Origin: Hydractinia symbiolongicarpus
Taxonomy: Eukaryota > Cnidaria > Hydrozoa > Anthoathecata > Hydractiniidae
Direction of reading: 5' to 3'
NCBI RefSeq assembly: GCF_029227915.1
Contig: NC_079879.1
Coordinates: 33,422,501-33,486,500, forward strand
DNA length: 64,000 nucleotides
A program made the position numbers and the translations under genes. Under the pieces are notes generated by a model. The model made no database searches. It saw only the letters and a list, made by a program, of their open reading frames with translations, and was not told where the DNA came from. Positions 7,457 through 34,910 of the stretch are shown here, in pieces (the stretch's first letter is position 1; each line of letters starts with the position of its first letter).

Positions 7457-7486
7457 AGCGTAGGCGAATCTGAAGTTGTATAAAAG
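7457..7486 (+). promoter_or_regulatory. Shared promoter block of ligand gene A
   Basis: AGCGTAGGCGAATC at 7457-7470 is followed by a TATA box (TATAAAAG, 7479-7486), about 72 bases before the initiator ATG at 7558. The same 14-base element precedes genes B and C. Transcription start and function are inferred. Confidence 0.6.
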
Positions 7487-7557
7487 ACATAACCTTCGCT
7501 TTCTAAATTTTATTTCTACAAAAACTTCAAATCAGTTAGCAACGAAGCTCTTTAATA

Positions 7558-9211
7558 ATGGTATGTTATTATACATATTTTTTTTAATTGACGACTTAGA
7601 GGAACTTTTTAAATTCGAGATGAAATAAGGGGGCTACGAAACGGCTAAGATGGGTTACGCCTGATTATTATTAATCTCTGTTCTGACAAATTTTAAATTA
7701 TTTCGTGCAATTAACGAACTGCTTAAAGGCGAGAGATCACTTCAAACACTTATCTCGTCAGCTCAAGGGGCATTACACAATAGTAGGTTTGGATCTGTTG
7801 CGTAGGGTATACTTAATGTCTCAGAATGAAAAGTCTAACAAAAACAACGAAAAGGTTTTCTCTCTACTATATCCAATCACACATTCGTAAACAATGTAAA
7901 ATCTGACAGCTATAAAATGTTTATTTATTTCCGTAATTTTTGATAAAATTTTCAGACGGTTTGTATATTTATCTTATAACGCAGCTTACTGCACTGTTAC
8001 TATACGACTCAAACGACTTAACTAAGAAAAAAAGAAAATAAATGAAGTGATAAACGACTGAACGAAGTGAATTAGCTAGTTCATAAGGATTGTGACGTCA
8101 TGGACAGAACGCAGTGAGGTTGATGCAAACAACCTCTGTACTGTAGACTTTGAAAATAAGTAAGAGTTGTACTTCTGTTTCGGTATGAAATAAAAATACA
8201 GCATATATATTTCATGTAGATTAATCAATCAAAGTTAAAAAAAAGTATTTGTTTTAGAGAACGCAATTATCGATTTTATTTGTTGGAATATCATTATTAG
8301 CCGGCGTAAGAACGATAACAACAACAACAACAACAACAACATCAACACCAAGAATTATAAAAACAACAAAATCACCCACGACAGAAGTGAAAATCTCCAC
8401 CTTGAATAACCTTGTTATCCAAGTGAAAGAGGCCAAGAATATTATAAAACAATGGAACGCGGCGAAAAGAATTTTATTTCAACGTCCAAAAGTAACATTT
8501 AGTACGACAACACAGTATAAGGTATGCGGAAGACAGTTCACAAAAGAGGAAGAAACCAAAAGGAATGAACTGAAGGTCTTAATAGATAGAAGTAACAAAG
8601 CTACATTTATCAAAAACAAGCAACAATGCCCAGGTAGGCGAGTGATTGTCCTTTTTTCTACTGCCTTTGTCTTCCATGATCACACGATTTTATCTCATTT
8701 GTATGATCTGTAGTTGCAACATTCAGAAAGAAACGCGACTTGCAAGATGTACAAAATCAATTTTCCAGTATTCCTGGAACACAGGTTATAGAGCTGTTCT
8801 GTAACGAAAGGAGAGCAGTACAAAATAACACACTGAATATGTGCAATGAGTGTGCTTACAGAATTATATTTCCACCGTCGTAAGTGTTACTCTTGTTACT
8901 TTTGTAGTACTTAAAGATAAAACTGTTCCTTACCCTTGATTGGCTCATGATATGTCAATTGAGATACTTTTTGTAATCGTAGATACTTTCCTCGCTATCA
9001 CTTTCATTACACATGTGACGAAAATGGCGACCATTCCTGTTTCTACGGAGAAGGGACGTGCGTCAAAAATGTCGAAACAAAGACGTTGAAGCATGATTTA
9101 AATGAAGTCGGTTTTGAAAATTTATATCAATGGGCGGACCGTGCTGTTGCTTTTACTGGATCGTGCTCCTGTCAAATAATCCAAAACAGTCTCTTTGATC
9201 CATTTGTGTAA
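7558..9211 (+). CDS. Ligand gene A: secreted pre-pro cystine-knot protein, Noggin/Trunk-like
   Basis: Predicted exons are 7558-7560 (ATG only; donor GTATGT), 8258-8633, 8714-8879 and 8983-9211, total 258 codons with TAA. All junctions keep frame (phases 0, 1, 2). The aligned position of B's internal Met is ACG here (8261), so translation must start in the upstream ATG exon. Order: hydrophobic leader (QLSILFVGISLLAG); a Thr-rich run from an ACA microsatellite, absent from B and C; basic pro-region with two Cys ending QQCPG; RKKR at residues 131-134, a likely furin site; mature domain of about 123 residues with eight Cys including MCNEC, YFPRYH, GTCVK and a final CSC. This Cys and YFPRY pattern resembles Noggin/Trunk ligands; IL-17 or Spaetzle-like folds are alternatives. 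No signal receptor can be inferred. Close paralogue of gene C. Confidence 0.75.
8303..8343 (+). repeat. ACA/AAC microsatellite inside coding exon 2 of gene A
   Basis: A run of AAC/ACA triplets is read in frame as a poly-threonine tract. Together with adjacent TP-rich codons it accounts for the 60 extra bases of this exon (376 against 316 in B and C). Confidence 0.85.
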
Positions 9212-9447
9212 TTTTTTGGTTAAGTCTGGTTTTTAAAAGCAAGATGCATTGAAACAAAAGTAGTATTAGTAAATCTTATATGAGGTGTAAACTTTTAGGA
9301 TACTTTTAGGAAGTCGATATCCTGCGGTGGGTTGAAAATCGCACATGCGGAATAAGGATGCCAAAGTTCGTGTTTTAGATGTTGAACTTCGAATAAAGAG
9401 AACTACTTTGATTATTTCGGACGTTTAACTTGGTGAATATGTTAAAA

Positions 9448-9580
9448 CTAGTCGGTGGCCCGTGGATAAATCCACAGGTTCACCTGTTCCTTACTTACCG
9501 CATTTCGTGTGTCTTACTACTGAGATTACCATTGTGCGTGACAGACAGACAGACGTATACGGGTATTATTATAATATAGA
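9448..9580 (-). mobile_element. Complete short Helitron-like element, 133 bp
   Basis: Read on the minus strand it begins TCTATATTATAATAATACCC, has the GTCTGTCTGTCTGTC run, then the hairpin CCTGTGGATTTATCCACGGG and ends CACCGACTAG followed by T. It is the smallest complete copy and defines both ends of the family. It lies 240 bases past the stop of gene A. Confidence 0.6.
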
Positions 9581-9589
9581 TAAGGAGCA

Positions 9590-10580
9590 CTTGCGCAATC
9601 TATTCAAGACCTGCTTTCGCGCTATCAGGAATTTTCAAAAATCATTGGTCGGATGCCGCATTTTTTATGCGCAACGAAAGTTCTTGTGTTACTCCATATC
9701 GTTTGTAATTTTGTTATTTTGATGAAGAAAGTATTTCACTGCATATAAAATTGCATCATTTGCATGCTTTAAGTTTTAGAATTTAATAATAGGTAACAAC
9801 AGAAACGTGTCAACAGTTTCGTCGTAGCTATGTTTTCAACTGTGCAACCTTAAGAAACAAACAAATAATAAAAAAAAAAAACACAGGACCGATAAAATTT
9901 TTTGAAAGTAGAAGGTCCAATATATTAAAGAAGGACCCCCCACCATAGTTGGTGTTGCCCTAGATTATATTTTAGAAAAATAGAAGGCTTTAATGTACTA
10001 GAATTGAGAAAATAGTCTTTCCGAGCTATCTGTAAGATGCAGCAACCTTTCATCTCCTAAACAACAAAAAAATTGTTATAATTTATTAAGTCCAAAATAT
10101 TGTTGGAATGAAATTAAGTTGACAGATGGGTTTACGATAAAACAACAAACGTCGTATGAGCACCCGTGATTCACATACCTCGTAGATGGAACTCTTACTA
10201 GTAAATCCCTATCATCAGAGAATTGATCAGTATGTGTTATCTTCTAGTCCTAAACTTTGTTAAAATTGACAAATATTAAAGTTACATCATTTGTATTCAA
10301 ATGGGAATGATAATGTATTCACAATAAATCATCATTTCCCCAGAAACGGTAATTACAATAACGGATGCCGCCATTTTCAAACAAAAGTCAACTTGGTTCG
10401 TACATATTTTGTTGATTAAAAGTCAACTTGGTTCGTACATATTTTGTTGATTTGTGGCGTCATATGGTGTAGATAGCTCAACATGATCAGCAAGACAAAG
10501 ATTTACTCACTTATTTGTCCTCTCAGAGTGATTAAACTTATCACGAGGTTCGAACGATAAAGAAGACAAGCTAAATTCCA
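9590..10580. other. Intergenic stretch, no gene seen
   Basis: AT-rich. A perfect tandem duplication of about 36 bases (aaaagtcaacttggttcgta... twice) occurs at 10383-10452. No supportable coding frame. Confidence 0.5.
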
Positions 10581-10589
10581 GTACAACAA

Positions 10590-11770
10590 CAGCATTGTAG
10601 GAAAAAATTATTTCCAAGAATTTAACAACATGCAAGATGCAAAGCTGTTCACTTTTGGGAATGTTACAAATTTTTAAAAGTTGTTATGGAACTGGAATTT
10701 TAAAAAACACTGGACCTTTTTATTAATGGGCACACTGGAATATGCATCTTTTATATCAATTGATGCCATAAAACAGTTTTTAGTTACAAGTTGAAGCACA
10801 TCTTTAATAGTATGTATTTTAAAATGCATAAATTCAATACCTTGTTTCATTTTTTTAAGATTGAGGATTAGTCTAATTGTTCCATCAACCTTATGGCTTA
10901 CAAATATTGGTGCGACGAGGGCATTGTTTTTGTGTGAGCATCTCTATACGATACCTTCTCTCAAAAGCTTTTCAATATTAAGTTTAACTTTAACTTCATC
11001 TTTAGGTAATATTATTTGCAAAATGCATAATCGGTGGTTCACTAATAAATGTTATAGTGTCACCTTCGTCACATTTCCACTGAGGGGATCTAGTGGAGAT
11101 CTGTTCACCTTGAAATCATCGTACTTGATGATCACAATATTTTAAGAAATCTTTACATTCCTGATTTATTTCTTGTATTGGTGCTTGTTGCTGCTGCTGT
11201 TGAGAGGAAACATCTCCTTCCAGCCTTTTCCTTTCGGCCTTTTCCTAAGAAAGAACCACTATTTCAGTTATATCCGTTTTACAAGCCGGTATTTGCATAG
11301 TACAGCCTGTTGTTTTTGTAACGATTCGTATATGTTGGTCCTCTTTAATGTGCTAAGAAAAGTTGGCACCGAACAGGATTTTGTAACCTCGGTAGACACC
11401 GTAATCAAGTCCTTATACTCATCTTTCAATTCAGATCTTACAAAAAGTTTTCGCTTTTGGCACAATTATGTATTCGCATGGCCTAGAAAAAGACAATAAG
11501 GTGATTACTTTTTTATCAGACTTTTTCTAATTATATTTACAGAACTAAGAATCTCATTAGCTATGGAAAGGGATGCACAGACAGCACCTGTGAGGCTTCT
11601 CTGATTTTAAGCCATTTTGAAATGTAAACATTTTTGCATACTGGGCAACATTTGCTAGAGTTCTATGTTCTATCTACGACCAGTTCATAGTTTTCAGGAC
11701 TGGGGTGTTTTTCAGCAAGTTTTTTCATTTCCTCCTTGACTTTTTTGTCTGCCCAATTTTGAACAATAAT
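10590..11770 (-). mobile_element. DIRS-like (tyrosine-recombinase type) retrotransposon fragment: gag-like and RT
   Basis: On the minus strand, from about 11760, NWADKKVKEEMKKLAEKHPS resembles a DIRS gag segment, followed by IEKLLREGIVYRDAHTK (about 10960-11010). Then comes an RT core at 10690-10900: VDGTIRLILNLKKM, FMHFKIHTIKDVLQLVTKN and MASIDIKDAYSSVPINKKVQ. The NLK...H-F-K...S-x-D-x-KDAY order is that of DIRS/gypsy-type RTs; HFK before the SIDIKDAY block favours DIRS. Several stops and frame changes are present and the catalytic downstream half is missing, so it is a relic. Confidence 0.65.
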
Positions 11771-11779
11771 CTGCCGAGT

Positions 11780-14700
11780 ATATCAAATACAATAATTTGT
11801 GCTATGTTTATATGATAAACTTGTTATTGCACTTGCTTTTGACAAATATCGTTATATTTTTATCGCTTCTTCGTTCTCGTATAATTCACTCGCCTAAAGA
11901 ATCGTAAAATAATTAAATGAGGGCGTAAAAAACTCAACAAATGTTTCTAAAATTTTTCTTGACATTATGCTTATGCTTAGGTGATAAAACTCACCATTGT
12001 AGAGAGTCTTATTGTGGATGACGTCAAGTCTATAAGAGATGATGTCACAGATGCCTAAAACAGACTATTTTCCCAATTTTGCAATAAATTTGATTTGCTT
12101 AAACAATACTGACTATATAGCCGTAAATGTTAGTAGAATTATTGTCGTAATTAGGGTCGTTCCAGAGCCTAAATGCAATAAAAGCCTATTTTGCACTTTT
12201 AAAAAGTTATTAGCAATCACATATAGGCAGATGTGAAGGAAATGATCTAAATATTGCTACCTTTGGAGAAAATTGTAGGGAATTTAAGTTAAGTCACGCG
12301 GCACCAATAAATCACAGCATTTTCCATCTATGTGATAATTCATGCTCTCTGTCTTTGATTCAACTCGAAAACCAGGGACTTTGCAATTAAATACGCTTTT
12401 TTAAATAATTAATAATCCCAGTCCGTGTAAATCTAATTACTTCATGTTCACAGGCAGACAATGATGCACGATATAGTGATGCGGAAAATATGTACGACGA
12501 GAGATCTTCCATGAAATCTCCCACGGAATAACGACTAGAGTCGCTTATATCTAACAGCTCCTAATTTTTATCATGTCCAGAAAATAAATGTCAAAGTCAA
12601 GGTTTTTGTGGTTTTGATAATAAATAAAATTTATTCCTTTATTTTGAGGTTTTCTAACTGTGTTACTTCTTTCATTGTATTGTTTTTCGATTTGGAACGT
12701 AAAGTGATTTTCCTCGCGGCATATATTTTCTTCCTTTTTAATAAACTTCTGACGGCCGGTCCCGAAGAGCACGGAAATCTCTGGTTTTTGTTTTCCGCCC
12801 ATTAAACTGCTATCACTTAGCTTCTGATGGAACGACAAAATAAATAATTAAAATTATTCTATTTTGTAAACAAGCAAGCTCAATTAGATAAGAATGTCTA
12901 CAAATCTTGATGTATTATTTTCTTTTAAAGTTTTGAAACAAAGAACCCACATAAGGCTTGTTTCAATGTCAAACATAGCATTCGTTGGGTTGAAATTCGT
13001 CGTACCGTCCAAGTAATGACACGGCTTCTATCTCCAGCGTGCTGTATGATCTTTTTTTCTGTTAGCAGGCTAAAAGCAATATCCAAGAAGAAAGTAGTTT
13101 TAATACTTTATACAACAATCTCGAGTAAAGTCGCATTCACATCTATGCATTTTTTTTACGTAAGGGCTAAATGTTTATTCATTCATTTTGTTATGTTATG
13201 TCGAACATTTATATAGATGTGGCCAACGTCGTTCATTTTCCTTACGAATTTTTTTGTTATATATATAAAATAAGTAAGGAGAAGAAAAAAAGAAAGAAAA
13301 ATTTGCGCAATAAGGTTGAAATACAATAAATTACGTTCCAAAATATCTTCCTTTTTCCCATCCGTTTTGTCTCTTGATGTCAAAGCTGCTGGAGGTTACA
13401 TGTCGGCTTCTCAAAATGTGTGCTCTTTCTTTTATTTGTGATAAATATGACTTCAAAAAATCTTTTTCGATTAATTGATCTACAGCTGAAATGTGTAAAA
13501 TGCATCATATTTTGCTCTCACCAATTTCTTTTTTCGTAAAAAACTTTCTCGTGACCCTATGATAGCCATTATCATTTATCATCCTAAATAATATAGGTGG
13601 CCCTATATATCTAAAAAACTTGTTTATTGGCGCCATTTGTTTTCTAAAACGCAAATATTTTCATGCGTGTGAACAACGGTAAACATAAATGTAAACGAAA
13701 GCGAAGAAAAAAGTGCTTATGGAAAAAAAATTTAACAATTTCCTATGTCCAAAAATTCGTAGATGTGGATGCGGCTTTAGGTATACAGCCTTAATTAGCT
13801 AATTAGCTTCAATTTTCCGGACATATCATGTTATGTCATGACAACCAATGTTTCGAGTTCAGGGAAATTTCACATAATTAATGAAGTTTTCTCCCTGTAA
13901 CAATTTCTCTAAAAGCAACTTGATCGAGTCCTCGTTCTTTACTTGCACATGGCGAAGGCGATGATTTTTGGTTGTTTATGTTTTGAATGCTCGACTTTAG
14001 AAATTCTTTTTCAAACTAAGTTATTATTTGTTCGCCCTGAAACTATATTATATAGTAATGATATCTTTTAAGAAGCATTATTTATTAAAGTAATATGGTA
14101 ACGCGTAATTACATAAAGCTGATTTTTGTTGGGATACAATGATACATAACATAACTAGCTAGCTAGCTAGTTAGCTGACTAGCTTTTATATTTTATAAGT
14201 TAAGTATCTCTTTGGGTAGTAAATCTTAGATAGCTGAGAAAGCTAGTTAGCTAAGTATAAAATAAAAATGTTTTCAACGTCTCACAAATATTAGCTAAGT
14301 AATTTTTCAAAAGCAACCTAGTTGTTAAGACTAAGTTTAAAATTGGGACAAAAATTAAGCAATTTAGGTATCTTTAGGCCTTATATCTATGCTATGATCC
14401 CCTCCCTTTACTTAGCTAGCAACTTTCCCTGTTGAAACATGCCAAAAAGTCTTCCCAGAATGAACATATACTGCGTTTAAACGTATGCTTTAGTGTGATA
14501 AATTCACTTCTGATGAACACGATGCAAAAGGCCAAGGTCTGGTTCACATTTCCAGAACTGTGTTGGTAAAATAATTATAGTGCTAAAACGACCAGCTGAT
14601 CATGAAGGCAATGCAATCTAATGCCTTACCCAAGAAGTTAGAGATAGTTGTACTTGTTTATCACTTAAATGTGTCATAATTGTACAGCTAGCTACATACA

Positions 14701-16940
14701 TGTTTTCTTTTGTTTATGCTCTTTCAGAATCCTCAACAAAATATGTCTTTCGGATAATTACATTTTAGTTGTAAATTCTCTTTGTGGTGTTTTTAGACCA
14801 AAATTTTGTTTCGATACATGAAATTTTTCTAGCTACAATGCCAGACAAATATATGTTTTTACCCTGCTCACATCCTCATTTTCCTATTTCAATGTTGAAT
14901 GACCAGTCTACAGAACGCCAGCATTGAAATAGGTGGAAGGGGGCCCAGAGGAGGATTTTCCTCAAAGTTCAAAAGATTGTAGCTTACATGTGGCTTGTGT
15001 CGTAGGTTCTCATTAGTTTTTATTATCAATTTTATTCCTGTGACTGTTAGAACAGAATAAACAGAATAAATTTTGCACAAGTGTAATGTTCATGCTAGCT
15101 ATACATGACAGACCAACAAGATGGTAAATTTGTTGAAGTAGTCAAATCAGTTGTTGAAAAATTATAGGATGCATGTGGATGGCCGGATTAAAAGTACACT
15201 TTCAGAAAAGTACTTGCTTCTCTAAGACAAAAAGACTATTGCAAAATACGGTTTTATTTTTTTTAGTAATGTTTTATTATACCTGCTGTTGGCAAGATAG
15301 CTAGCTAGCTACATGTTTTTTCTTATCTAGCTAACTTGCTAATAGTCATGTTTTACAGAAAACATAAGAAAGAAACTTTATTTTCATTTAAGATTTCATC
15401 TTTCATAAAAATATTTACTGCGCGGCTCACCATTTTTTAGTCAATTTTTTTGAACATTTAACATATTAAAAAAAACTCTTATCGTTCAGTGTTGTTGTTG
15501 CAAAACCCGCCATCTATATAGCAAATCGTTTCATATATTATGCCTATGAATAAATTATCTATCTCGAATGTAAACTAATCGCATTACAGAACTCACCAGT
15601 GTGTACCACGGGGTTTTTCGCTGCCGACCTCGCTAAATAAAAGCAATTATACAAATATTTGACAAATCTTAAATTTTACTTCTTCAGCAAATTTGATAAC
15701 ATCACCAATCTTAAGGTGTTACTTAAAGTCTAGGCAACAACAGTATATTTTATGTCCATTAAATAACAAAAAAAGAAATTACAGAGAAGGTAAAAGCTTT
15801 AATATGAACTAGAAATATAGGGTGAATAATCGCGTTACTGCTTAGAGACAAAGAGTTTTTATAATTTAGTCGCCTCAAAAAAAGCAAAAAAAAACAGAAC
15901 CTCATATTACTGTTGGATTTTATCACGTTCAGAAAGTAGATGGTAAACGGTCAATAAAATGTCACAGGAAGTCGAAAGGTCAATGTAGTTTCTATGGTTT
16001 CGGTAATATGCAAATATGAATGCTTAGTTTTGAGTATCCCTAACTGTGTGACTTGCATTCTTTTTTGATTTGTTTAAAAGAAAAAATCGGCAAGAAACAG
16101 ACTTCCTTATCGACCTGTACGTCGAAATAAATAACCGGGATTGCTTTATTTTTGTAAACTATTATAAGTATAATTAAGTAAGATATCTCTGAATCCACAT
16201 TAATAATTCGCTATTAAAGTTCTGAAATAAAGAACCCACGTTTTGTTTTGACTTTCTCCATTAGCAACAAAATGTTAACTATTTTAATTTTTGGAAGTTT
16301 AACTAATCAAATGGTATTGTAGTGTTCGGTTATTTCTAAGTCCTGAACATTTGGAATACTTTCTGATTAACGCAAAATGCCTTAATGTTGCCTAAAAGCA
16401 TTCTTAAATTACTATTAGATGATATCAAGTGTTGTGCCAACTTTCGAGCTTACTATTCTTTGCACAATGAATTAAAAGGATTCATACTTCCACGTAACAT
16501 TTAACGCTTAAGAAAAAAAAACAATACAGGATATATCCACGATTCTGTCGTTTTTTTAATTTTTCAATGTCATTTGAAAAGAGAAGATGAATAATGTTTA
16601 GGATTTATTGAGTTAGGAACTTCCTACGAAGAAGATAATTCCAATAGTCTTCGGCAAGGTAAGAAATAATGCTTATTTAGCAGCACTAAGTTTTTGCACC
16701 TGCTTTAGTGAGATTACAGTAACCTAGAAAGATAGTTCTAACATTGTCAATATTTTTTCCATCTGGCAAATGCTGACACGGTTGCATATATAGCCAAAGA
16801 TGTGTGGCCACGCATTTTTGATCGTGTCAGTATTTTTAGCATTCTAATATTATAATATCCTGCATTCTTATCCAACTCCACAGGTCTTTCTCAAATTGTA
16901 ATGTAAAGGTTATATATACAGGCTTAAGAGTTGTTTATAT
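11780..16940. other. Long intergenic stretch, no supportable gene
   Basis: AT-rich with open frames under 100 codons and no recognisable domain. Clusters of AGCT/TAGC short repeats occur at 14155-14190 and 15297-15340. This is the upstream flank of gene B. Confidence 0.5.
14155..14185. repeat. (AGCT)n short tandem cluster
   Basis: A run of the palindromic tetranucleotide (ACTAGCTAGCTAGCTAG) with nearby variants. Similar runs are at about 15297-15312, 26898-26912 and 39172-39186. Confidence 0.7.
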
Positions 16941-16945
16941 ACCAA

Positions 16946-16993
16946 AGCGTAGGCGAATCAAAAATCATCTTAATACGGGGAATTGTATAAATA
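16946..16993 (+). promoter_or_regulatory. Shared promoter block of ligand gene B
   Basis: AGCGTAGGCGAATC at 16946-16959 is identical to the element of gene A. The TATA box TATAAATA is at 16986-16993, about 82 bases before the ATG at 17075. Confidence 0.6.
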
Positions 16994-17074: not shown

Positions 17075-18963
17075 ATGGTAGGTTATTGAGTCGATTACAT
17101 AGTTTAAATTATAATCTACAGGTGTCCACTTTATATACTTAAAATAGCTGCAAAAACTTGTCCTGTTTTTTTTAGAGAATGCAATTAGCGATTTTATTTG
17201 TCGTTCCATGGGTAGCATTATCTGTTGGTAAGGAAAAAACAACAACACTGAAGATATCCACCTTGAATAAACTCGCCAGGCAGGTAAAAAGGGCTAAGCA
17301 CATTGCCAAAGAATTGAGCGTCACAAAAAGATATCTTCATCGACCTCCATTGGTGGTGTTTAGTAAATCTACCAGATATAATGTTTGCGCCAGACCGTAC
17401 ACACCAATGGAAGCAACTAAACGGAATGAGCTGAAGGCCTTAATAGATAAAAGCAAAGATAGTTACATCAAAAACCATCAACAATGTCCTGGTAGGTCTT
17501 AACCTTCCTTTATTTTAACATATTTATTTTTACACAGTATCCGTGTAATTCTTATTTGTAACACGATTTTCTTGTACACTCAGCAAATGGAAAGAAACGA
17601 AGCTTACAAGCGATACAAGACGAATTTGCTCACATTCCTGGCACACAGGTTGAACCCCTGTTTTGTAATGAAAGGAGAGACATGCAAAGCAATACACTGA
17701 ATATGTGTAAAGAATGTGCATACAGAATCACTCTTCCATTATCGTGAGTGATAACATTTGTCGTTATTTTTTTGTTACCTTCAGGAAAGAAAAGTTTGTG
17801 CAAGATAAAATTGCGGAACTAAAGATTGTGAATTGGTAAGATTGCGAATCTGATACTTGGTCAAGAAATTGCGGAATTTAAAATTTCATTTGAAGCAATG
17901 ATCAATAAATTTTTTCACAAAATCACTTGATAAATTATTCATCTTGATGCGTTTTCAATCCCTCACATAAACTTTTCTTTTGTTCTCGCATTTCGTGATT
18001 GAGACATGCTGTACACGTTTCCCGAATTACATGTTTTTTAAAATGTTGGAATTTTGATGTTTTGACCTTAACATCATTTTCAGCATTAGTAAATTGGTTA
18101 ATGTATAAATTTTCAACTTAATCCGACATTGGAAAGTGCTGTTTTGGTGGCATCATTGTTACGGTCAAAGCTTTCTTAATTTTCGACTTGTACTAATAAG
18201 CCTCATCTTCGAGCAAATGCAATGTTAATTAGTAGAAAGTGTTGTAGCAGGTTGTTTGTTTGATGTATAAATAGAAAATTTACCGATTTATTAATTCTTA
18301 TGTGTGGATTTCGAAAATTACATTCATTTTCTTTAAAGAAGTTGAGAAAAATGCTGCAGCACATCAAAGAAAATAAATTCAGGAAAGGTGTTTAATTCAT
18401 ACTTAAACAACCCTTGATTGTTTTTCACCATGCACATTTCGAAATATGTTACAAATTCCCTTTGAATCTCTGTGTTTTTTCATCTTGTCATTATGACTTA
18501 TTTCTTTAAAAGATTTCGATGCAAAAAATTAAGGGTTTTTGACCAAATTTGCAATCTTTACTTCTGCGATATTTTCTTGCGCAATAAATTCTTCCCTTAA
18601 GGTATTTTTTCCGTGGAAGGAGGAAATGGACAAGGCGGGGACGGAGGGTCAGAAGCTACTGTTTCTTTTATGTTTTATTTTTTAAGTTCTCTTTTCGCAA
18701 TAATGCACCTCTATTCAGATGCTCTTTGTTCTCGTAGGTACTTCCCTCGCTACCATTTGCATTTCACATGTGACGAAAATGGCGACCATTCGTGCTTTAG
18801 CGGAGGTGGAGTGTGCGTCATGAACAAACTGACAAAAAGTTTGAAGCACGATCTATATGAACACGGTCCTGACATGAATCAATGGGTGAATCAGCAAGTT
18901 GAATTTACTGGTTCGTGCTCCTGTCAAATAATAAATGACGACATCTTTAGTGAATTCGTTTAA
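17075..18963 (+). CDS. Ligand gene B: secreted pre-pro cystine-knot protein, Noggin/Trunk-like
   Basis: Predicted exons are 17075-17077 (ATG; donor GTAGGT), 17176-17491 (acceptor TTTTTTTTAG), 17584-17743 (donor GTGAGT) and 18738-18963, total 235 codons with TAA. An internal Met at 17179 could also start translation, but paralogues A and C lack it, so the exon-1 ATG is preferred. Leader MQLAILFVVPWVALSVG; pro-region with Cys in NVCARPY and QQCPG; NGKKR at residues 108-112 is a weaker, dibasic cleavage site than RKKR in A. The mature region of about 122 residues has Cys in LFCNERR, MCKEC, FTCDENG, HSCF, GVCVM and SCSC, plus the YFPRYH motif and a late Trp. Likely an extracellular ligand; the family is inferred from spacing, not a search. 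The long third intron (994 bases) has no gene. Confidence 0.78.
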
Positions 18964-22719: not shown

Positions 22720-23836
22720 TTACACCAATGCGTCAAAGACACTGTTTTGGATTATTTGACAGGAGCACGATCCAGTAAATGCAACAGCACGATCCACCCA
22801 CTGGTTTATATTTCCAAGACCAACTTCATTTAAATCGTGCTTTAACGTCTTTGTTTCGACATTTTTGATGCACGTACCTTCTCCGAAAAAACAGGAATGG
22901 TCGCCATTTTCGTCACATGTGTAATGAAAGTGATGGCGAGGAAAGTATCTACGATTACAAAAAGTATCTCAATTGACATATCATGAGCCAATCAAAGGTA
23001 AGGAACAGTTTTATCTTTAAGTACTACAAAAGTAACAAGAGTAACACTTACGACGGTGGAAGTGTGATTCTGTAAGCACATTCATTGCACATATTCAGTG
23101 TATTACTTTGTACTGCTCTTCTTTCGTTGCAGAACAGCTCTGTAACCTGTGTTCCAGGAATACTGGAAAATTGATTTTGTACATCTTGCAAGTCGCGTTT
23201 TTTCTGAGAGACTGTGTAGAAGATAAATGAAGTGTAAATATCACACGCATTAACTCCTCCCCCCCCCCCCCCCCACACACACACACACACACCACCCTCA
23301 TAAGATGATTTATATTCAAGAAGCGAAGGAAATATAGTGTGAATGATAAATTAAATTTATAACAAAGAAAATCTCTACCTGGACATTGTTGTTTATTTCT
23401 AATATAACTCTGTCTGTTTTTATCAATCAAGGCTTTCAATTCATTTCTTTTAATTTCTTCCTCTTTTGAGTATGGTCTTGCACATACTTTAAACTGGGTA
23501 GCTTTACTGAACTTCACTATTGGTGGCCTAAGCAAAATTCTTTTTACCGCATTCCATGTCCTGATGATATTCTTGGCTTCCTTTACCTGTCTGACGAGTT
23601 TTTTTAAAGCGGGTATCTTCACTGTTCTTTTTGTTTTCTTACCGCCAGACAATGCTACCCAAAGAATAAAAAATAAAATCACCAACTGAATTCTCTACAA
23701 TAAAGAGAAACACAGTTTTTACACAAATGTCAAGTGTAATTTGTACAGGTTATGTTCTATTAAAGTTTTTACGTTTAAGAAAACAGTCGTAACTTAAAGC
23801 AAAAACGAACGATTTAAATCGATTATGACTTACCAT
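22720..23836 (-). CDS. Ligand gene C: secreted pre-pro cystine-knot protein, Noggin/Trunk-like
   Basis: Predicted exons on the minus strand are 23834-23836 (ATG; donor GTAAGT), 23379-23694, 23052-23211 and 22720-22948, total 236 codons with TAA. The position of B's internal Met is ATT here, so the exon-1 ATG is required. Leader QLVILFFILWVALSGG; pro-region with Cys in FKVCARPY and QQCPG; SQKKR at residues 108-112. The mature region has the eight family cysteines (LFCNERR, MCNEC, YTCDENG, HSCF, GTCIK, SCSC) and YFPRHH in place of YFPRYH. Exons and the last intron (TTGATTGGCTCATGATATGT and around) are nearly identical to gene A, on the opposite strand, so A and C are a recent inverted duplication. 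No disabling changes seen. Confidence 0.77.
23257..23292. repeat. (C)n(CA)n microsatellite in intron 2 of gene C
   Basis: A poly-C run of about 17 bases is followed directly by CA repeats. It is read as poly-Gly/Cys-Val in open frames across the intron, which are artefacts. Confidence 0.9.
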
Positions 23837-23917: not shown

Positions 23918-23962
23918 TTTTTATAATTTCTCCCTTAATAAGATTAAAGAATCGCCTACGCT
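23918..23962 (-). promoter_or_regulatory. Shared promoter block of ligand gene C
   Basis: On the minus strand AGCGTAGGCGATTC (23949-23962) is followed by a TATA box (TATAAAAA, 23918-23925), about 82 bases upstream of the ATG at 23836. Thirteen of 14 bases match the element of A and B. Confidence 0.6.
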
Positions 23963-25249: not shown

Positions 25250-26455
25250 AAGAGTTCTAGCTATTTTAAAAGTTATTAAAATTATAAAGAAAGAACTAAT
25301 AAACTGTTTGTGAGAAAGGAAATAAAATAAATTTGTATTACTAGATAACTAGCTGGGAGACTTTGCATGGCAAAATGTCACACAAATTGCTCTTCCAATC
25401 GTCTACGAAACAACTTCTTCCAGATATTTATTTGTCGAAAGGTTAGCACATTAAAGATTGACAACAAAAAACCCCATTGTCTTAATCGTAGTGGCCATAT
25501 GGTCGTGACTGATCATCCCCTACGTCTATTACTTGAGTATAAAAAGTGCAATGACTTGAGTAGCATTAAGATCAGTGCAAAATAATAAACATATAAATAA
25601 TTTCGTATTACCTATACTTCTTGAATTCTAGAAATTAGAAATTTTAAAGGAGGGTGAACTTTTAAAGAAAATAATCAGACGTGTATTTTAATGTTTTGCT
25701 TAACATCTGTGCATATGCTAAGAAACTTAAAGACGTATAAAGCTTGCTATAATATTTCTAATCTAAATATTGATTAAACTCAAGTACATATTCTTATAGT
25801 CCATGGCCCAGTATGAATAGGGTTCATTTCTTGCATGATGTCATACTGTAGCTTGATTCATCAAAATGTTAGTTTTCAATAGATATCAGGGTAGTGGTGA
25901 TTCATTGTTGTCTTCGAAAACAGTTAAATTTAGGAACTCTGTTGCTGCTTATTTTAGCTATGTAATACACATCAGACCCTCTAACTCGCCTCCCTATAAT
26001 TCGAGCGCCTCTAGTGCCGGAGAATTAAGCATATTTTGGTACCACTTTTAAAAAAAGAATAACATCTAAATCTCCTTACGCAGTATAAACATAACAACCT
26101 GAATAAAGAATTTACCCCGGCAAATGCATTCTGAATCAGCACTTAAAATCGTCCAAATTTTTTGACAAATATGCCACTAGAAAAAGTTAAAAAATCGATT
26201 GGCAGTCGTTGATTATTACAATACAATTCTTTACGAAATACAAGCACTAAAAATGAAAAAACATTTTAAGAACATTTTAATTAAATTTAAACCTTATTTT
26301 CAAGACAATAACGCTATATCTTTAATTTAAACGTTTTGGTGGATAAAACATGAAATTAATCAGGTTTTGTATATAAGGCGTTGGTGAGTAAAGCTAAGAT
26401 AAGAATATAGCTGTAAATATTTCCCAAACATACTGCCACTTTACTCTAAAGTATA
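25250..26455. other. Intergenic stretch, no gene seen
   Basis: Short open frames only, with no recognisable domain or splice structure. Confidence 0.5.
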
Positions 26456-26459
26456 TATT

Positions 26460-28045
26460 TCTTTAATAATAGCCGTCGTCTGTCTGTCTGTCTGTGTGTC
26501 CGCGAAAGCCGTGTCCCGTAACGGAAACACGAAATTTTTAAAATGCGCACCAATATCAAATGCGATATATTTTTACCGACTTTGTTTTGACCGCTTGCGC
26601 GTAGTATACCAATCACGACGCCCAATTCTTTAAAGAAAAAAGATTTTCGCGACCAGAAAGAATCCAAGATCTTCGCGGAACGAAGGTCATTTTGATTTTG
26701 GTAACGGTCGTGTGTATGGTCAGTGTGTGAGGTTTGTAGGCCTATTTTACTTTTTTATCTTCTAAAAGCTTTATATATTTGTAATATTTGTTTTCTGTTT
26801 GTTTTCAATTTTACGATAAATATATTGTCACGTTTTTTAGCCGCGTACAAATCTTACACGCACCAGTTTTGGGATGTTTGGCTAGGAACGAAGATTAGCT
26901 AGCTAGCTAGAGCCTCACTTATTGCTATTCTGTTTGGTGTAAGAGATTTTTATCCTAGCCAACATTTATTTTTATGTTGAGGCTGTGTCTTTTATTATTT
27001 TCCCAAACACTTTTTCTGCAAATAAAATGGTTGAGCAAATGTTTTAACTGAACAGGTAACAACAGGCTGTTCCCTGTGTTTTTATTTCAGCCATAGTTGC
27101 AATGAAGTTTTTTTGGAAAAGGGTATTACGCCTATATGCCTGTTCAACTATATTCAACTGTACTAAGCGCTTAGCCCAGTGTTAACAACAGACTTCCTTC
27201 TGCAACGTTGTTCGCATGTACCAAAGGGTCAGCCTACTGTGATAATTAAGTTTTAAACTTTCTCGGTAATCATGCCGGTACGGTTGTGCAACACGGTTTA
27301 CCCGGACTAACTGCTCAGCCCGGTTTTAACAATGGACTGTTTCCTGTTTGTTTTTATTTAAACAGATTCTGCGATAAAGTTTTTTCAACAGTGTATTATC
27401 CCGATACGCCTAAGTAAGCGGTCAGCTCGGTGTCACAATTAATCTTTTTACTTTCACAGGAATAATTGACCGACTGTTGTTGCTCTGATGGGGTAACAAC
27501 GGTTTTAGCTCTGTTTTTATTTCATCTAACGTTGCGGGAAAGTTATTTTTTGAAAAAATAGTCGCAACACTATAATGGTGTATGCGCTTCACTTGATTTA
27601 CGACATACTGTATACCAGTACTAAAGTGCTTCACCTGATCGTGTGCAATAGTTTACGACTACCATTAATTGTTCCATCGGTGTTTTCAAAGCTGTTTGCC
27701 TGTACTAGGCGTTCAACCTGGTTGAACAAATAATTTTGAATTTACGCAGAGACTTATTCTGCAAAATAAAATAATATTGACCGATTGTTTTTGTTATGAT
27801 GGAGTAAAAACGGTTTGTAAACTGTGTTTTTATTTCAGCTTTTGTTGTGGGATAGTTATTTTTTTAAAAATATTTGACATTCGCAACACTATAATGGTGC
27901 GCTTCACTTAATTTACGACATACTGTATACCTGTACTAAAGCGCTCCACAGTTCACGGCTCTTATTAAGCGCTCCACAGAGGGTTTAACACCGGATCACA
28001 CCTTGACCTGTGGCTTACCCCGGCGTTTCAACGCCAGTTTTTCCG
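26460..28045 (+). repeat. Helitron-like 5' end followed by imperfect internal repeats
   Basis: TCTTTAATAATAGCCGTCGT with a GTCTGTCTGTC run at 26460-26495 matches the family 5' end and continues CCCGTAACGGAAACACGAA, as in the copy at 28050. From about 27050 to 27990 four imperfect direct repeats carry (GTAA)CAACGG...CTGTTTTTATTTCA...TGCG.(GA)AAGTT, with GCAACACTATAATGGTG in two. Related sequence lies in reverse at 38560-38930 and forward near 45960-46010. It may be one larger element or nested copies. Confidence 0.5.
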
Positions 28046-28049
28046 GCTA

Positions 28050-28243
28050 TCTCTTTAAAAATAGCTGTCGTCTGTCTGTGTTTCTGCGAAAGCGGCGTCC
28101 CGTAACGGAAACACGAAATTTTTATAATGCGCACGAATATCAAATGCGATATACTTTTATCCACTTTGTTGCGACGGGTTAATTTAAAGGACGAGCGAAC
28201 GCGACGGGCGACCCCGTGGATTTTTCCACGGGCTTACGACTAG
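28050..28243 (+). mobile_element. Helitron-like non-autonomous element, 194 bp
   Basis: 5' TCTCTTTAAAAATAGCTGTC with GTCTGTCTGTG; 3' hairpin CCCGTGGATTTTTCCACGGG then CTTACGACTAG followed by T. It shares CCCGTAACGGAAACACGAA and ATCAAATGCGATATA with its neighbours. Confidence 0.6.
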
Positions 28244-28245
28244 TC

Positions 28246-28414
28246 TCTATAATAATAGCCGTCGTCTGTCTGTCTCTGCGCGGACACCCCGCTGAGTTCG
28301 CTAATCGTGCTACGGAAACACGAATATCGAATGCGATATATTTTATCCACTTTGTTGCGACGGGTAAATTTAAAGGACGGGCGACCCCGTGGATTTTTCC
28401 ACGGGCTAACGACT
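28246..28414 (+). mobile_element. Second Helitron-like copy, head-to-tail with the first
   Basis: 5' TCTATAATAATAGCCGTCGT; 3' hairpin CCCGTGGATTTTTCCACGGG then CTAACGACTG, where the terminal CTAG has changed. It begins almost exactly where the previous copy ends, so one appears inserted at the other's 3' boundary. Confidence 0.55.
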
Positions 28415-28465
28415 GTTTATTAGATTCCTATTATTTTGTTGCCAGTGTTTATGCATCATGTATCA

Positions 28466-28466
<1 letters not shown>

Positions 28467-28502
<36 letters not shown>
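28467..28502. repeat. (GTT)n microsatellite
   Basis: About eleven uninterrupted TTG/GTT triplets. Confidence 0.95.
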
Positions 28503-28504
<2 letters not shown>

Positions 28505-28749
28505 GATGAAAAAAACATATTTGTTCCCAAGGCAAAGCGCTTGTAATTATTTCGAAGTTATGCATAATAAATATTTCGAACGCTTTTAGCCAATCTCGTC
28601 CTATCATGTCACTTATCTTAATAATTTTCCTGCCATTATGAAAATTACTTAACAATGTCTTATATAGTAATGTGAGTTATATATGTCCATTAACAATTAC
28701 AAAGTGTGTTTTTGCAATATTGTTTTCTTTAACTAACTTTCGGCTGTAT

Positions 28750-29820
28750 ACACGATGATATTGTTGATGGTATGCATAAGGATGATTTTCGTGCTTTGCT
28801 TATACTTGCCACCAAAGAGATATTTTTTTTGTTTGATAGTGAATATAATAGCCAGACTGATGATGTCGCCATGGGTTCACCACTTGGACCCACATTGGCC
28901 AATATTTTTCTCTATTTTTATATGAAACAATGGCGATCAGTCTGTCCTACACAATTTAAATTTTTATATTACCAACGTTTTGTAGATGATATTTTTCTAT
29001 TGTTCAATTCTTTGGATCATTGTAATGAACTTAAGGACTTTATGAATACTAAACACCCCAACATGAAGTTTACTTGTGAAAAAAAAGAGAGAAGCCTTGC
29101 ATTTTTGGATGTTTTAGTAAGTTAGGAGAATGGTAATTTTGTCACTTCTTTGTACCGCAAACCCACTTTTAGTGGTGTTTTCACTAGCTTCATCTCTACT
29201 ACTTACAAGTATGTCTTGGTTTTTACCTTATTGTTTAGATGTTTTTCCTTAGTATTGGACTTTTCCAAATTTTATGTCGAGGTTAATACTTTGAAGTATT
29301 TATTGTTAAGGAATGGATATCCTAGTAATTTCATTGATTCTTGTATTCACAGCTTTTTAAATAGGATACACTTGTGTAAGAAACAAATTGTTGGCGCGGT
29401 TCATAAAAAGGATATCTTAGTTGTTCTACCGTATTTACCGTGTTTTGCTACAGGCCTGTACTTGCTTAGTCAAATTTTTTTCCAAGTCGTTGCCTTTCTG
29501 TCATCTTTGTGTAGTTTTTAAGTCTTAAGTTGGGAACACTTTTCAGGTTCAAGGATCAAATACCTAACACTCGCCCCTAGTGTCATTTATAAATTTTCGT
29601 GTAGTAGATGCAATGCTACTTATGTTGGTAAAACCAAACGACATCTGAAAGTGAGGGTGTCCGAACATATAGGTATCTCAGCTCTCACCGAAAAACGTGT
29701 TGCGAAGCAACAAGACACTGCCGTAGGAGACCATATGATGGAGTGTGATTGCCTCGCTAATTTTAATGACTTTTTTATACTGTTTACAAAGAGGCACATA
29801 ATTATACATTCGAAATAAAG
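28750..29820 (+). mobile_element. Second Penelope-like retroelement remnant
   Basis: RT segment from about 28754: DDVAMGSPLGPTLANIF, then YYQRFVDDIFLLF with an intact FVDD catalytic motif, then LAFLDVLVS. An in-frame TAG follows at 29123-29125, and the frame continues with SLYRKPTFSGVF to a TAA at 29519. Other frames carry LGTLFRFKDQIPN. The GIY-YIG part at 29570-29815 reads VIYKFSCSRCNATYVGKTKR then a histidine-rich stretch with SEHIG and GDHMMECDC. It has a premature stop and at least one indel, so it is inactive, but it is better preserved than the copy at 1-1165 and differs from it in sequence. Confidence 0.85.
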
Positions 29821-30097
29821 GGAAGTCTTGTGATATAAAGGAGAAGCTACCTCCTAACAAGAACGTAATGAGCTCTCCATTATATTTATTTATTTAAATT
29901 TCTTTTGCACACGTTCACGATTATTTTATAATTTTTGTTTTTCTCTTAATGATCCTTAAAGTTGTAGAACAGAATTGTAGTTGTTAAACGTGATCATAGC
30001 TATAGCATACAGCCGAACGCTAGCTAAAGAAAAAAATATGTCAAAAACACACTTTTTAAAAGTCTCATATGTAACTTTCCGTAAGCTCTATTATTCT

Positions 30098-30715
30098 GAA
30101 ACCTCCTTTATTCGAACACCTCTATTATTTGAACACCTCTATTATTCGAACACCTCTGTTATTCGAGTACCTCTATCATTTGAAAACCTCTATTATTCGA
30201 ACACCTCTACTATTCGGACATCTCGTCGAACACCACTATTAGTCGACCACCTGTGCTATTATTCGAACACCTCTGTTATTCGGACACCTCTATTTATTGA
30301 ACACCTCTGTTATTCGGACACCTCTATTTATTGAACACCTCTGTTATTCGGACACCTCTATTATTCGAACACCTCTGTTATTCGGACACCTCTATTATTC
30401 GAACACCTCTGTTATTCGGACACCTCTATTATTCGAACACCTCTGTTATTCGAACACCTCTACTATTCGAGCGCCTCTATTGTTCTAGCACCTCTATTAG
30501 TTAAACACCTTTATTATTCGAATACCTTTGTTGTTCGAATACCTCTGTTATTCGAAAACCTGTATTGTTCGAACATCTCTATTGTTCGAACACCTCTTTT
30601 ATTTGAACACTTCCATTATTTAAGCACGTCTATGTTCGAACACCTCTTTTATTTGAACACTTCCATTATTTAAGCACGTCTATGTTCGAACACCTCCATT
30701 ATTTGAACGACTTTT
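30098..30715. repeat. 17-bp minisatellite with a 34-bp higher-order unit
   Basis: Units of the type CACCTCTATTATTCGAA alternate with CACCTCTGTTATTCGGA, giving a 34-bp dimer that is most regular at 30240-30450 and decays on both sides. The edges contain TTTATTTGAACACTTCC variants. Open frames across it (such as SYSNTSVIRTPL-like peptides) are repeat artefacts. Confidence 0.93.
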
Positions 30716-31619
30716 TCTGTCATGTAGAGAATCTACTCTCTTTGTTTCGAACACTTAGAGTCTTAAGGGGTTACTAAACCGAACAACAATATGTAATAAA
30801 CAGACCACGCAAAAGATCATGTACACGAAAGTATACGCACTTTACAACTGTAGAGACAACCTCTTTATGAACAATTACTTTCCTTGGACAAAAAGTTGCT
30901 ATCTCCTGAATAGAAACATTTGGTATTCTTTTTGGCGGTAAAATAAGTTATGGTTTGTAAAATATATTACAGTAAGTTTGTAACAACGACAACACAAGTT
31001 GATGTATTTGGTTTGGCAAAAAATGCTACATTACTAGCTCTAAGTATGCAATCAATATCATTGTCGTTGACTCAACTGCTTTTATTTGGGCAATCTGATA
31101 TGTTTCATGTACTTTTTTCAAGTCTCCTTTTACTAGTCATCAGCTTTGAGTCTTAATTCCGTAGGTTGTCAGTTACGGTTAGGTTAGGTCAGTTATGTTG
31201 TTAAGATTCAACTATTCTAAACTCACTAGTAAATCTTCATTTTCAAAAAGTCGTTGTTTCTGGTTATATCGGCTTGAAGCAGAGAATGTTTTTTTGTATT
31301 ATCATTACGAAGCAACATTTGATTTGAATAAAGATGTATTTAAAATATAGTTGAATTTCCACGCCTGAAGGCGTAGAAAATTCTTTAGAACCGTCGTTCT
31401 TTTCTTTCGGAGCATTTTTTGAGAAAAAATCGCCCCTGGGATTCTATGTTCCTCTGAGAGGAGGATAGTATTGGTGGGGCGATTTTCACGAAGCGAATTG
31501 AGCGGCGAATTCGACGGCGAATTGTATCTGAGCATGCGCAGTTCGATGCAAAATTGCAACGTCACAGATTGAAACTTCGTACCCAAGCTCCTTAAGTACT
31601 GGGAAGTCATCTAAATGAC

Positions 31620-31990
31620 GTTTCAGGCCAAAATTGGTATTTGTTTTTAACAAAATTTGGCACAGTTAACAAAAAAAGTATGCTGAACATAATGGTGACA
31701 TTAAAATTTTGATTTTTGTCACCTAAATGCCATTTTAGGCCAATGTTGGTCCAAAAATTAAGACAACTTCATTTTCGGCCAAACTTGGTACAGTTAACAA
31801 ATAAAGTATGCTGAAAATTATGATGATACAAAAGTTTGAATTTTTGTCACCTAAATGTCAATTCAAGCGAAAATTTGTCCAAAAACTAAAACTACTTCAT
31901 TTCGACAAAAATTGGCACAGTTAATAAAAAAAGTATGCTGAAAATGATGGTCACAGCAAAATTTTGATTTTTTGTCAACTGAATGCCGTT
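31620..31990. repeat. Tandem repeat of about 128 bp, three copies
   Basis: The landmark GTTAACAAAAAAAGTATGCTGA occurs at 31665, 31793 and 31920 (spacing 128 and 127) with flanking TTTTTGTCACCTAAATG. A related single copy is at about 39835-39920 (TTTGGCACGGCGAACAACAG). Confidence 0.8.
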
Positions 31991-32589
31991 TAAGACCACA
32001 AACGTTTCAATCGCAAGACTTTTAACCATAAATGATAGGCTGTATTTTTTGTTAGCAATTTCTTTTAAAATGTCAGTTTATTATGACACGTTTCGTTTTG
32101 TTTGCGTTTGTTGTAAGATATAATGTCACTTGTGTGCTTTATCTTCAGAGCTTCATGCACCAAACCTCTTCGAATGTTTGGCATAATAACACAACGAATT
32201 AGCAGGTTGTCATCAAATATTTTGGTAGCGAGCGGAAATTTATAGAGCCCCCAGGGGTTCTTGTTACGTTTAAAATAAAGTTGATTCAAAGAAAGAAATT
32301 TAAACCGTGTCTACATTTTTATTCTGATATTAATAAATGACATTGAAGAAGAAGTGGTGTTTAAAAATTCGAAACAGTTAGAACAGAGAATCAGATATCA
32401 TCGAATTGCTTTTTTAGTTTAACCATATTTCAAAGAGAAAGAATTGTACCTGTTAATAATATTTTTGTCGTGTTTCAGTATTATATTTCTTTTTTTATTA
32501 TCATCTCTTTTGTCCTATAAGCATTTAAATAGGGTCAGTAGCAAAGAAACACAAGCCTCATTTTAATCATTATCAATCCAATTCTTGTG

Positions 32590-32712
32590 CTGAACGTTGA
32601 GCAGCAGGGCTCAGTTTACACTTTTATAGTCTCTGGCATGACTCTGTCGGGTTTGAACCCAAGACCTTCCGCGCTGGAGGCGAACGCTCTACCACAAGGC
32701 CAGCAGTCGGTG
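32590..32712 (-). mobile_element. tRNA-derived SINE, family 2
   Basis: On the minus strand TGGCCTTGTGGTAGAGCG (A box) and GGTTCAAACC (B box, 32650-32659) lie about 35 bases apart, followed by a non-tRNA tail. The T-stem is poorly paired, so it is a SINE head rather than a working tRNA. A short decayed piece of the same B-box region is at 40684-40712. Confidence 0.65.
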
Positions 32713-33261
32713 ACTACTTGCCCAGGAAATCTAATTAAATTAGTGGTGTAGTTTGTCTGGAGTTGGCAACTGTTGTCTTTTATTTGAAATAATTTTAGAC
32801 GTTCTCGACCAATCAGAGCGTTCAGATGGTACTATTCACGAGTTTTTTATCCGGCGCTACCTATTCTTAAATCCTTTTTTGTAATTAACCGCACATATAT
32901 ATTTTAAAGAATAAAAAAGATAGAAACACATCACTATAACAGTAAAAATGTATTTTTCTCGTACTTACAAAATTTATAAAATGTTGTCTCCGACGCCAAA
33001 GGAAATAACAGCGTAATGATATAGCCAGAGAAATGTTAATTTATGTCTGGTCAGCATGTTTGTTAGTTGTTGATTCCAAAGCAGTTGATTTTTCCCATAA
33101 GTATATAGGGTCAGTTAAATGTCGAAATGTGTGTCTAATCAGCAGGTAAGGTTGGTTGACTGGTTATTAATACATACCAGCCAGGCAAATATGTCAACAT
33201 ACCATTGACGTCATGGAAGGTGATTGAATCGTAGCTACTAATTAATTAACTTAATTGTCGC

Positions 33262-34582
33262 TCACAAAAATAGAGAAAGTAACGTATTTTGCAGCAACTC
33301 GCATGAACAGGATTTTGGTATTTCCAGTTGCACTGGTGTCCATTGATTAAGCCTTTTAAATCCAACTTCTTTCGAATCATATAATACCGTAGTAAAGGCT
33401 TTATTCGCGATACATACGCCGTCACCCGACAGGCAGGAATAATCGCCGTCATTGTCGCAAGTCACTACTTTATGATAACGTGGAAAGTATCTAAAAAATA
33501 ATACATAAGATATGATGTTCGTATGATATTGACATTGAAAAGCAGAACGGAAAGTTATTCCAACATTTTAAAACGTTAGTTTGCATGAAAATATTCGTTG
33601 AAAATACTCACAATATCGGTAAGGTAAGAGAATGGACGCATTCTGAACACATGTTGAACGTCTTTGTGTTTTTATTAACGTTTTTCTTTCCAATGCAAAA
33701 AAGCTTTCTTGATTTAGTTCCAGCAGGCAGACCAGGTAATTCTATTGACCTTCTTCTTCTTCTCTTAGCGCCGGTTACAACACCTTGGCCTAAAAAAATG
33801 AAAACATGTTAACCAAGTCTAAATTTTTAAATTAAAATGGACATTTTTGCGGGGGTTTTAATATCGTGAATCCTCGTGGATATACACTGTTGACCCTTAA
33901 CGAATGGATCTTGGACATCTGCGGGTAAAAATCGGACAGAATAGGTCAAGAGTTAGACTGCCATAACTCCTAAGTACTAGTTATTATGAAAAGTACTCGC
34001 AAGTTTTAGAAAATGACGAATTGTGCTACTCGACGATAGTAAACATGAATCGTATAGGCTTTGTCGTCAGCCAGCTCAAGTTTCGGAAAGTAGATTATTT
34101 GTTGACCGAAGAACGAAAGATCTTTTCAAAAACGGGCTGTAATTTAAGTAGCTAAATTTAGGTATTGCAGAAATCCAGACTTTTTAGGGTAAAAATAACC
34201 CAAAATTTTTGAACATTGGCGTGACATTAACTTTTCAGACTCTAATTTCAGACTTTGTATTTATTACAAATTCTATACGTCATCATTTAAGAGGCCTTCA
34301 CTCACCTGGGCACTGTTGATGTTGTTGTATATAAGCTCTGTAACTTGGAGTATTCACCATTTGATTTTTCAGCTGGGTAGCCAAGTTTAATTCAATATTT
34401 GTTTTATTTCGCCCGCATGCTTCATATTTTGTTGTTTTTTCATAAATGACCTCACTAGCATTTTTGATTAAATTTTCCAAACAATGCTGAGTTTCTTCCA
34501 AGACTTTAATCGGTTCTTCAGTTGGAATTGTTGCCACGTGTAGAACAGCAGAAAATAGCGTCAGTAAAATTAGTTTAGAATA
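33262..34582 (-). CDS. Ligand gene D: diverged secreted cystine-knot protein; start exon not found
   Basis: Predicted exons on the minus strand are 34306-34582 (acceptor CTTTCTTTTAG), 33612-33789 and 33262-33490 (TGA), 228 codons in frame with the same phases as A-C. The leader reads YSKLILLTLFSAVLHVA and begins directly at the acceptor, so an upstream exon must supply ATG; no ATG|GT was found between 34583 and 34890. Pro-region Cys are in YEACGR and QQCPG, with an extra Cys in TQHCLEN. KRRRRR before SIELP is a stronger furin-type site than in A-C. Mature Cys: LFCIGKK, MCSEC, VTCDNDG, YSCL, GVCIA, SCSC; YFPRYH is kept. Intact frames argue against a pseudogene, but initiation is unresolved. 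Confidence 0.7.
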
Positions 34583-34890
34583 CTAAAAGAAAGGTGAAAT
34601 AGAAGATAAGTAGGATAGCTAAATGTTATCCGGTTTATTCCACATTAGCTTGCCTGTCTACAAATGCGTTGTCAAAGATTTAAAGAATAGCAATAACAGG
34701 AGCATTTCGGTTCTTGCTTAAAACATCAGTAGAGTCATTTCGGGTAGAACGACTCATTAATTTTTTAATTAGTTATGTTAATAAAAGAACGTACATCTGT
34801 TAGCATATAATAATTGTATAACCTTTTGAGCGCAGCCATTCAAAAAATACGGCTATTTTTATACCGTTGATTATATACACATAGGTTCTC

Positions 34891-34910
34891 TATTTATATT
34901 CTCCTACGAT
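34891..34910 (-). promoter_or_regulatory. Partial promoter block upstream of gene D
   Basis: On the minus strand ATCGTAGGAGAA runs straight into the TATA box TATAAATA (34891-34898). CGTAGGAGAA resembles the core CGTAGGCGAA of A-C, but its 5' part differs and abuts the end of a Helitron-like element at 34914. Confidence 0.4.

Follow-up and report, generated by a model that had tools for sequence, protein, structure and literature searches.

A cluster of four related genes in Hydractinia symbiolongicarpus

Within a 64-kb window of the genome of the colonial hydroid Hydractinia symbiolongicarpus (the whole stretch analysed, 64,000 nucleotides, with positions counted from its first letter) lies a cluster of four related genes, A and B on the forward strand and C and D on the reverse strand, which are candidates for secreted cystine-knot ligands. 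A reading made from the sequence alone (the sequence-only reading) had proposed four genes with identical exon phases; the rebuilt models bear this out, as all introns are GT-AG and fall in phases 0, 1 and 2 in four of four genes. The spliced protein of gene C is identical over 235 residues to the RefSeq protein LOC130646324 (P0002), and the 224 residues of gene A that run from residue 34 to the C-terminus differ at one position from LOC130646344 (P0001). Because of these two matches, the cluster is not a product of chance. Both RefSeq proteins are labelled 'uncharacterized', and a literature search with the two locus names found no papers. The RefSeq start for A differs from that of the rebuilt model and omits exon 1, the leader and a T-rich stretch; the exon 1 of C, whose coding part is an ATG only, agrees with P0002. 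Exon 1 contributes the start codon alone in A, B and C and four codons in D (15 from an earlier ATG), and the D exon is the least certain part of the models.

Genes A, B and C are homologous to D (tblastn of D against A, E 2.9e-26). A tblastn search with the four proteins (E up to 1) found no credible fifth copy in the window; its sole match elsewhere than at the four loci is 16 residues long (E 0.82). Two profile searches of 5.8 billion proteins, in which candidates must share exact 5-residue words with the query, returned no RefSeq model for B or D among their matches; since neither came up as a named protein, both may be missing from the current annotation. Rfam gave no matches at gathering. 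The features of the cluster are as follows.

7459..7484 (+), gene A promoter signature, CGTAGGCGAATC...TATAAA; pattern count, one per gene
7558..7560 (+), gene A exon 1, start codon then GTATGT; by homology to C
8258..8633 (+), gene A exon 2, leader, T-rich stretch and pro-region (2 Cys); gene model, with P0001 from residue 34
8714..8879 (+), gene A exon 3, RKKR site and the beginning of the mature domain; P0001 has the same joins to exons 2 and 4
8983..9211 (+), gene A exon 4, YFPRYH...CSC and stop; gene model
16948..16991 (+), gene B promoter signature; pattern count
17075..17077 (+), gene B exon 1, start codon; gene model
17176..17491 (+), gene B exon 2, leader and pro-region; gene model, with P0003 85% identical over 234 spliced residues
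17584..17743 (+), gene B exon 3, KKR site; gene model
18738..18963 (+), gene B exon 4, YFPRYH...CSC and stop; gene model
23920..23960 (-), gene C promoter signature; pattern count
23834..23836 (-), gene C exon 1, start codon; gene model, whole spliced protein equal to P0002
23379..23694 (-), gene C exon 2, leader and pro-region; gene model and P0002
23052..23211 (-), gene C exon 3, KKR site; gene model and P0002
22720..22948 (-), gene C exon 4, YFPRHH...CSC and stop; gene model and P0002
34893..34908 (-), gene D promoter signature, short spacing; pattern count
34795..34806 (-), gene D exon 1 (MLTD), donor GAT|GTACGT, upstream in-frame ATG at 34839; least certain exon
34306..34582 (-), gene D exon 2, leader and pro-region; gene model
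33612..33789 (-), gene D exon 3, KRRRRR site; gene model
33262..33490 (-), gene D exon 4, YFPRYH...CSC and stop, aligns to Noggin; gene model and alignment
8723..9244 (+), tract of gene A matching C 23207-22687 at 92.9% identity, with the introns; probable gene conversion

The four proteins share one layout

Each predicted protein has a hydrophobic leader (assigned by eye), a pro-region, a basic site and a C-terminal domain. The basic cleavage-type sites described earlier are present in all four (RKKR in A, KKR in B and C, KRRRRR in D), as are the eight cysteines of the mature domain, with CSC at the end of that domain; the cysteine gaps in A-D are 14/16-3-20-8-7-35/34-2. Other details of the sequence-only reading changed on splicing or closer comparison. 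The pro-region ending QCPG belongs to an unspliced reading, and the spliced proteins have QCPV (A), QCPA (B), QCPV (C) and QCPG (D); YFPRYH occurs in A, B and D, and is YFPRHH in C; and the two-cysteine pro-region holds for A-C, while in D three cysteines (residues 49, 71 and 106 of the 242-residue model) precede the basic site. From this layout, the products of A-D are predicted to be secreted, and proprotein convertases would cleave them at the basic site. In exon 2 of gene A, an ACA-type trinucleotide run at about 8314-8343 encodes a threonine tract that is absent from B, C and D and is left out by the RefSeq model.

A promoter signature common to the four genes

Upstream of each gene we found the sequence CGTAGGnGA followed within 45 bases by TATAAA. 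This combination occurs exactly four times in the 64 kb on both strands, once per gene, and in 100 first-order Markov simulations it occurred on average 0.03 times and at most once; since the pattern was drawn up after inspection of the same four promoters, the count is descriptive. The distance from the end of TATAAA to the ATG is 74 bases in A, 84 in B, 84 in C and 87 in D (with the ATG at 34806), and the signature supports the placement of D exon 1. A 13-base form, GCGTAGGCGAWTC, is present without mismatch at A, B and C; with two mismatches allowed it matches 3 times where 0.78 matches are expected, a count equalled or exceeded in 4 of 100 shuffles. A-D have this one signature in common and are probably co-expressed; the signature may simply have been inherited through the duplications. 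Upstream similarity beyond the signature was also seen between B 16801-16883 and C 24111-24025 (70.8% over 89 positions) and between A 7310-7381 and C 23930-23856 (74.7% over 75 positions).

An identity step between genes A and C near the predicted cleavage site

Genes A and C are 92.9% identical at the DNA level from A 8723-9244 to C 23207-22687, a stretch that takes in the introns as well as the beginning of the 3′ flank. Identity in exon 2, which holds the pro-region, is 71% over 253 positions, and intron 2 gave no alignment between A and C at E 1e-3. Similarly, the proportion of synonymous differences between A and C is 0.20 in the mature region versus 0.81 in the pro-region. The border of the identical tract lies two bases ahead of the RKKR codons. 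This step is probably the trace of a gene conversion that stopped near the cleavage site, or of a recombined duplication; conversion would have homogenised the ligand halves of A and C while their pro-regions diverged. In each of the six gene pairs, and in both regions, the proportion of replacement differences is lower than that of silent ones (mature domain, pN 0.05-0.40 versus pS 0.20-0.87), which is consistent with constraint, these values being averages over the whole domain that could hide single fast sites.

Relatives and distribution

At E up to 10, the 5-residue-word search yielded five family members, two of them from Hydractinia symbiolongicarpus. The suggestion that the family is lineage-specific is supported within the reach of this protein search and no further. 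The relatives P0003, P0004 and P0005 have the same order of eight cysteines, with a gap of 39 in P0004 and P0005 where A-D have 34-35. Their contigs are at most 1415, 932 and 1053 bases long, and because a single open frame spans the three joins on such short contigs, they are probably spliced transcripts. The position of D was unsure in a tree of seven rows. No Noggin, Noggin-like or Trunk-like cluster from Hydractinia, Hydra or hydrozoans was found among the open-access titles and abstract openings surveyed. Trunk and Trunk-like proteins have been reported from anthozoans and a ctenophore (PMC6660194); these are non-bilaterian members of the superfamily.

Gene D links the family to Noggin

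The sequence-only reading had called the proteins Noggin/Trunk-like, and the Noggin part of this claim holds by way of D. The D protein matches the Pfam Noggin profile (PF05806) with E 0.0069 over positions 70-210 of 211, and phmmer aligns it to the Noggin chain 1m4u of the PDB in register from YFPRY to C.C. When D was shuffled with its cysteines fixed, 0 of 50,000 shuffles reached the Noggin score; with the cysteines and YFPRY both fixed, 46 of 50,000 did. D and Noggin have in common a YFPRY/FWPRY motif followed by C, SC, VC, W and C.C. The corresponding pattern, [FY][FW]PRY...C...SC...VC...W...C.C, is found in register with Noggin in D only, so that A-C are tied to Noggin solely through their homology to D. 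In hhalign comparisons of a six-sequence family alignment, Noggin ranked first (score 19.5), followed by PTTH (14.5), IL-17A (10.7) and NGF (9.5). Together, these comparisons give good support for a relationship between D and Noggin. The family differs from Noggin in other respects: A-D and their relatives have a conserved pro-region with a basic site, and the family C-x-x-C precedes the PRY motif with a shorter spacer.

In direct comparison, the sequence similarity to PTTH was weak and at best marginal. Of the features of the Trunk/PTTH group, for which PTTH (5aoq) served as the sequence reference, the family shares the spacing of the knot cysteines, the C.C end and a pro-protein with a basic site; it differs in having C-x-x-C rather than C-x-C and an additional upstream cysteine. 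The gaps of the likely knot are 20-8-7-35-2 (34 in B) versus 23-8-6-42-2 in PTTH; in Noggin they are 23-6-8, followed by 36 up to where the terminal CKCSC begins, a span that holds two further cysteines. The PTTH-like spacing suggests that the knot uses six consecutive cysteines from the second of C-x-x-C onwards, leaving the first two as extra cysteines that possibly serve a dimer. Pairwise shuffle tests covered 20 pairs (5 of the 9 family sequences against Noggin, PTTH, IL-17A and NGF). Against PTTH, the score was reached by 19 of 1000 shuffles for B, 43 for A, 119 for C and 145 for P0004, and the hhalign match to PTTH was weak (P 0.16). A, B, C and P0004 were weak against all four references, their best pairs being B-PTTH, A-PTTH and A-Noggin.

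Several matches were treated as chance: DSL (E 0.07-0.71), ING, CUB_2, Hormone_3 and Aegyptin_C, all below Pfam cut-offs; a phosphatase in the PDB for the A mature region (E 1.3); and 6tr4, 6tr3 and a hemagglutinin in the PDB for D.

Candidate receptor ligands and competing explanations

That the locus holds a local family of secreted-type pro-proteins, as first proposed, is supported by the gene models, the shared frame and the link between D and Noggin. We think it fairly likely that A-D form a divergent and apparently narrow branch of the Noggin/Trunk/PTTH superfamily, locally amplified, whose products are processed receptor ligands. Each gene would give a secreted pro-protein for a proprotein convertase to cleave at the basic site, and the C-terminal domain of about 120 residues would adopt the fold of a cystine-knot growth factor and probably dimerise. 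The mature domain would then be an extracellular signal received by a surface receptor, and would more likely be an agonist of the Trunk/PTTH kind than a clip-bearing BMP trap; the four copies would probably be expressed together, with conversion between A and C homogenising the ligand. Receptor and function are predicted. The Trunk pro-domain is reported to be cut by furins at a KR site, a step needed for function (PMC7252263), and the family has a basic site in four of four genes at which cleavage is predicted. Trunk is regarded as an activator of the receptor tyrosine kinase Torso, although formal proof was still missing according to a 2018 account (PMC6303783).

A number of results weigh against this interpretation. 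The D score against Pfam Noggin, 16.7 bits, is below the curated cut-off of 24.1, and the same profile did not match A, B, C, P0001 or P0003-P0005. In the PDB, Noggin was third for D (E 0.74), with two unrelated chains above it; the family profile found nothing there at E up to 10. The pairwise alignment of A with Noggin is out of register, with 47 of 1000 shuffles reaching its score, and the hhalign match to Noggin was weak despite its rank (probability 2.4%, P 0.02). D was no better than shuffles against PTTH (334 of 1000). P0004 and P0005 have YLHRF where YFPRY is expected, and the D mature region used as sole query gave 14 candidates, none at E up to 10. In B and C the site is KKR, without the arginine that would complete a furin site, and the activity of Drosophila PTTH is reported not to depend on two dibasic sites that were tested (PMC7252263). 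Finally, two AlphaFold2 models built from 11-row alignments had mean pLDDT (predicted local distance difference test) values of 47.5 and 42.4; since models of such low confidence neither support nor refute a cystine knot, we infer the knot.

The proteins could instead be secreted BMP antagonists, that is, functional Noggins with BMP5-8-like proteins as their binding partners, in a lineage that has lost Chordin. Noggin is the nearest family-level match of D, and Chordin has been reported lost in Hydractinia (PMC11226491). However, we found no trace of the Noggin clip (residues 28-60), which the same paper reports to contribute to BMP inhibition, before the basic site in any of the four proteins: the clip scored like shuffles (1673, 550, 1964 and 391 of 2000 for A-D), although the motif is short and a diverged clip could escape this test. 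The part before the basic site is, moreover, probably removed. The full set of nine cysteines of the Noggin C-terminal domain was not found either, as cysteines 207, 215 and 232 have no counterpart, although there are other cysteines upstream, and A-C lack an in-register match to Noggin (A inspected). We regard antagonism as unlikely.

Less likely still, the genes may encode secreted, cysteine-rich effector, venom or defence proteins made by nematocytes or gland cells, in which the disulfide frame alone resembles a growth factor. The narrow apparent distribution, the local amplification with its identity step between A and C, and a pro-region with basic residues at its end would all suit such proteins, but the similarity between D and Noggin extends beyond the cysteines and replacement differences in the mature domain are below silent ones. 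IL-17, Spaetzle or neurotrophin-type cystine-knot proteins, which share the C-terminal C.C and a similar cysteine order, are a very improbable source: across the 5 of 9 family sequences tested, IL-17A and NGF gave shuffle-like scores (D-IL-17A, 615 of 1000; D-NGF, 162 of 1000, the lowest of the 10 pairs), they ranked second-lowest and lowest in hhalign, and the Pfam scan of the four proteins matched no IL-17, Spaetzle or neurotrophin family, no direct comparison with Spaetzle having been made. A kinship to IL-17A or NGF was rejected.

We prefer the receptor-ligand interpretation to antagonists and effectors on the basis of the papers on Trunk, PTTH and Noggin-like proteins. Aphid Noggin-like proteins are reported to be able to act on BMP or MAPK signalling, and that work raises the question of the ancestral activity (PMC9071555). 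Cnidarian ligands of the Noggin/Trunk superfamily offer a direct means of asking whether the ancestral protein antagonised BMP, activated a receptor tyrosine kinase or did both, and Hydractinia is described as a stem-cell model (PMC10411563). New here are the promoter signature common to the four genes and the probable conversion tract of A and C, which is confined to the ligand half. Tentatively, and with more doubt than confidence, we speculate that the branch is restricted to hydroids and that, with conversion holding the ligand halves of A and C alike as their pro-regions diverge, copies deliver nearly the same signal under different control of maturation or localisation, with one promoter code for all.

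Other features of the window

Two ammonium transporter exons lie at 44748-45540 (-) (PF00909, E 1.8e-40 and 7.9e-13), and adjoining frames at 44208-44582 and 46656-46943 (-) appear by eye to be further exons. A stretch at 174-653 that by eye resembled a piece of reverse transcriptase matched no Pfam family at E 0.001. Just under the Pfam cut-offs are a reverse transcriptase piece at 28733-29122 (+) (RVT_1, E 1.5e-06) and, following it, a GIY-YIG-like piece at 29522-29815 (+) (E 0.00042); the pair (28733-29815) looks like what we take to be a decayed Penelope-type element. Tandem repeats were found at 3995-4382 (period 22, 17.6 copies) and, between C and D, at 30086-30708 (period 17, 36.9 copies) and 31650-31987 (period 128, 2.6 copies).

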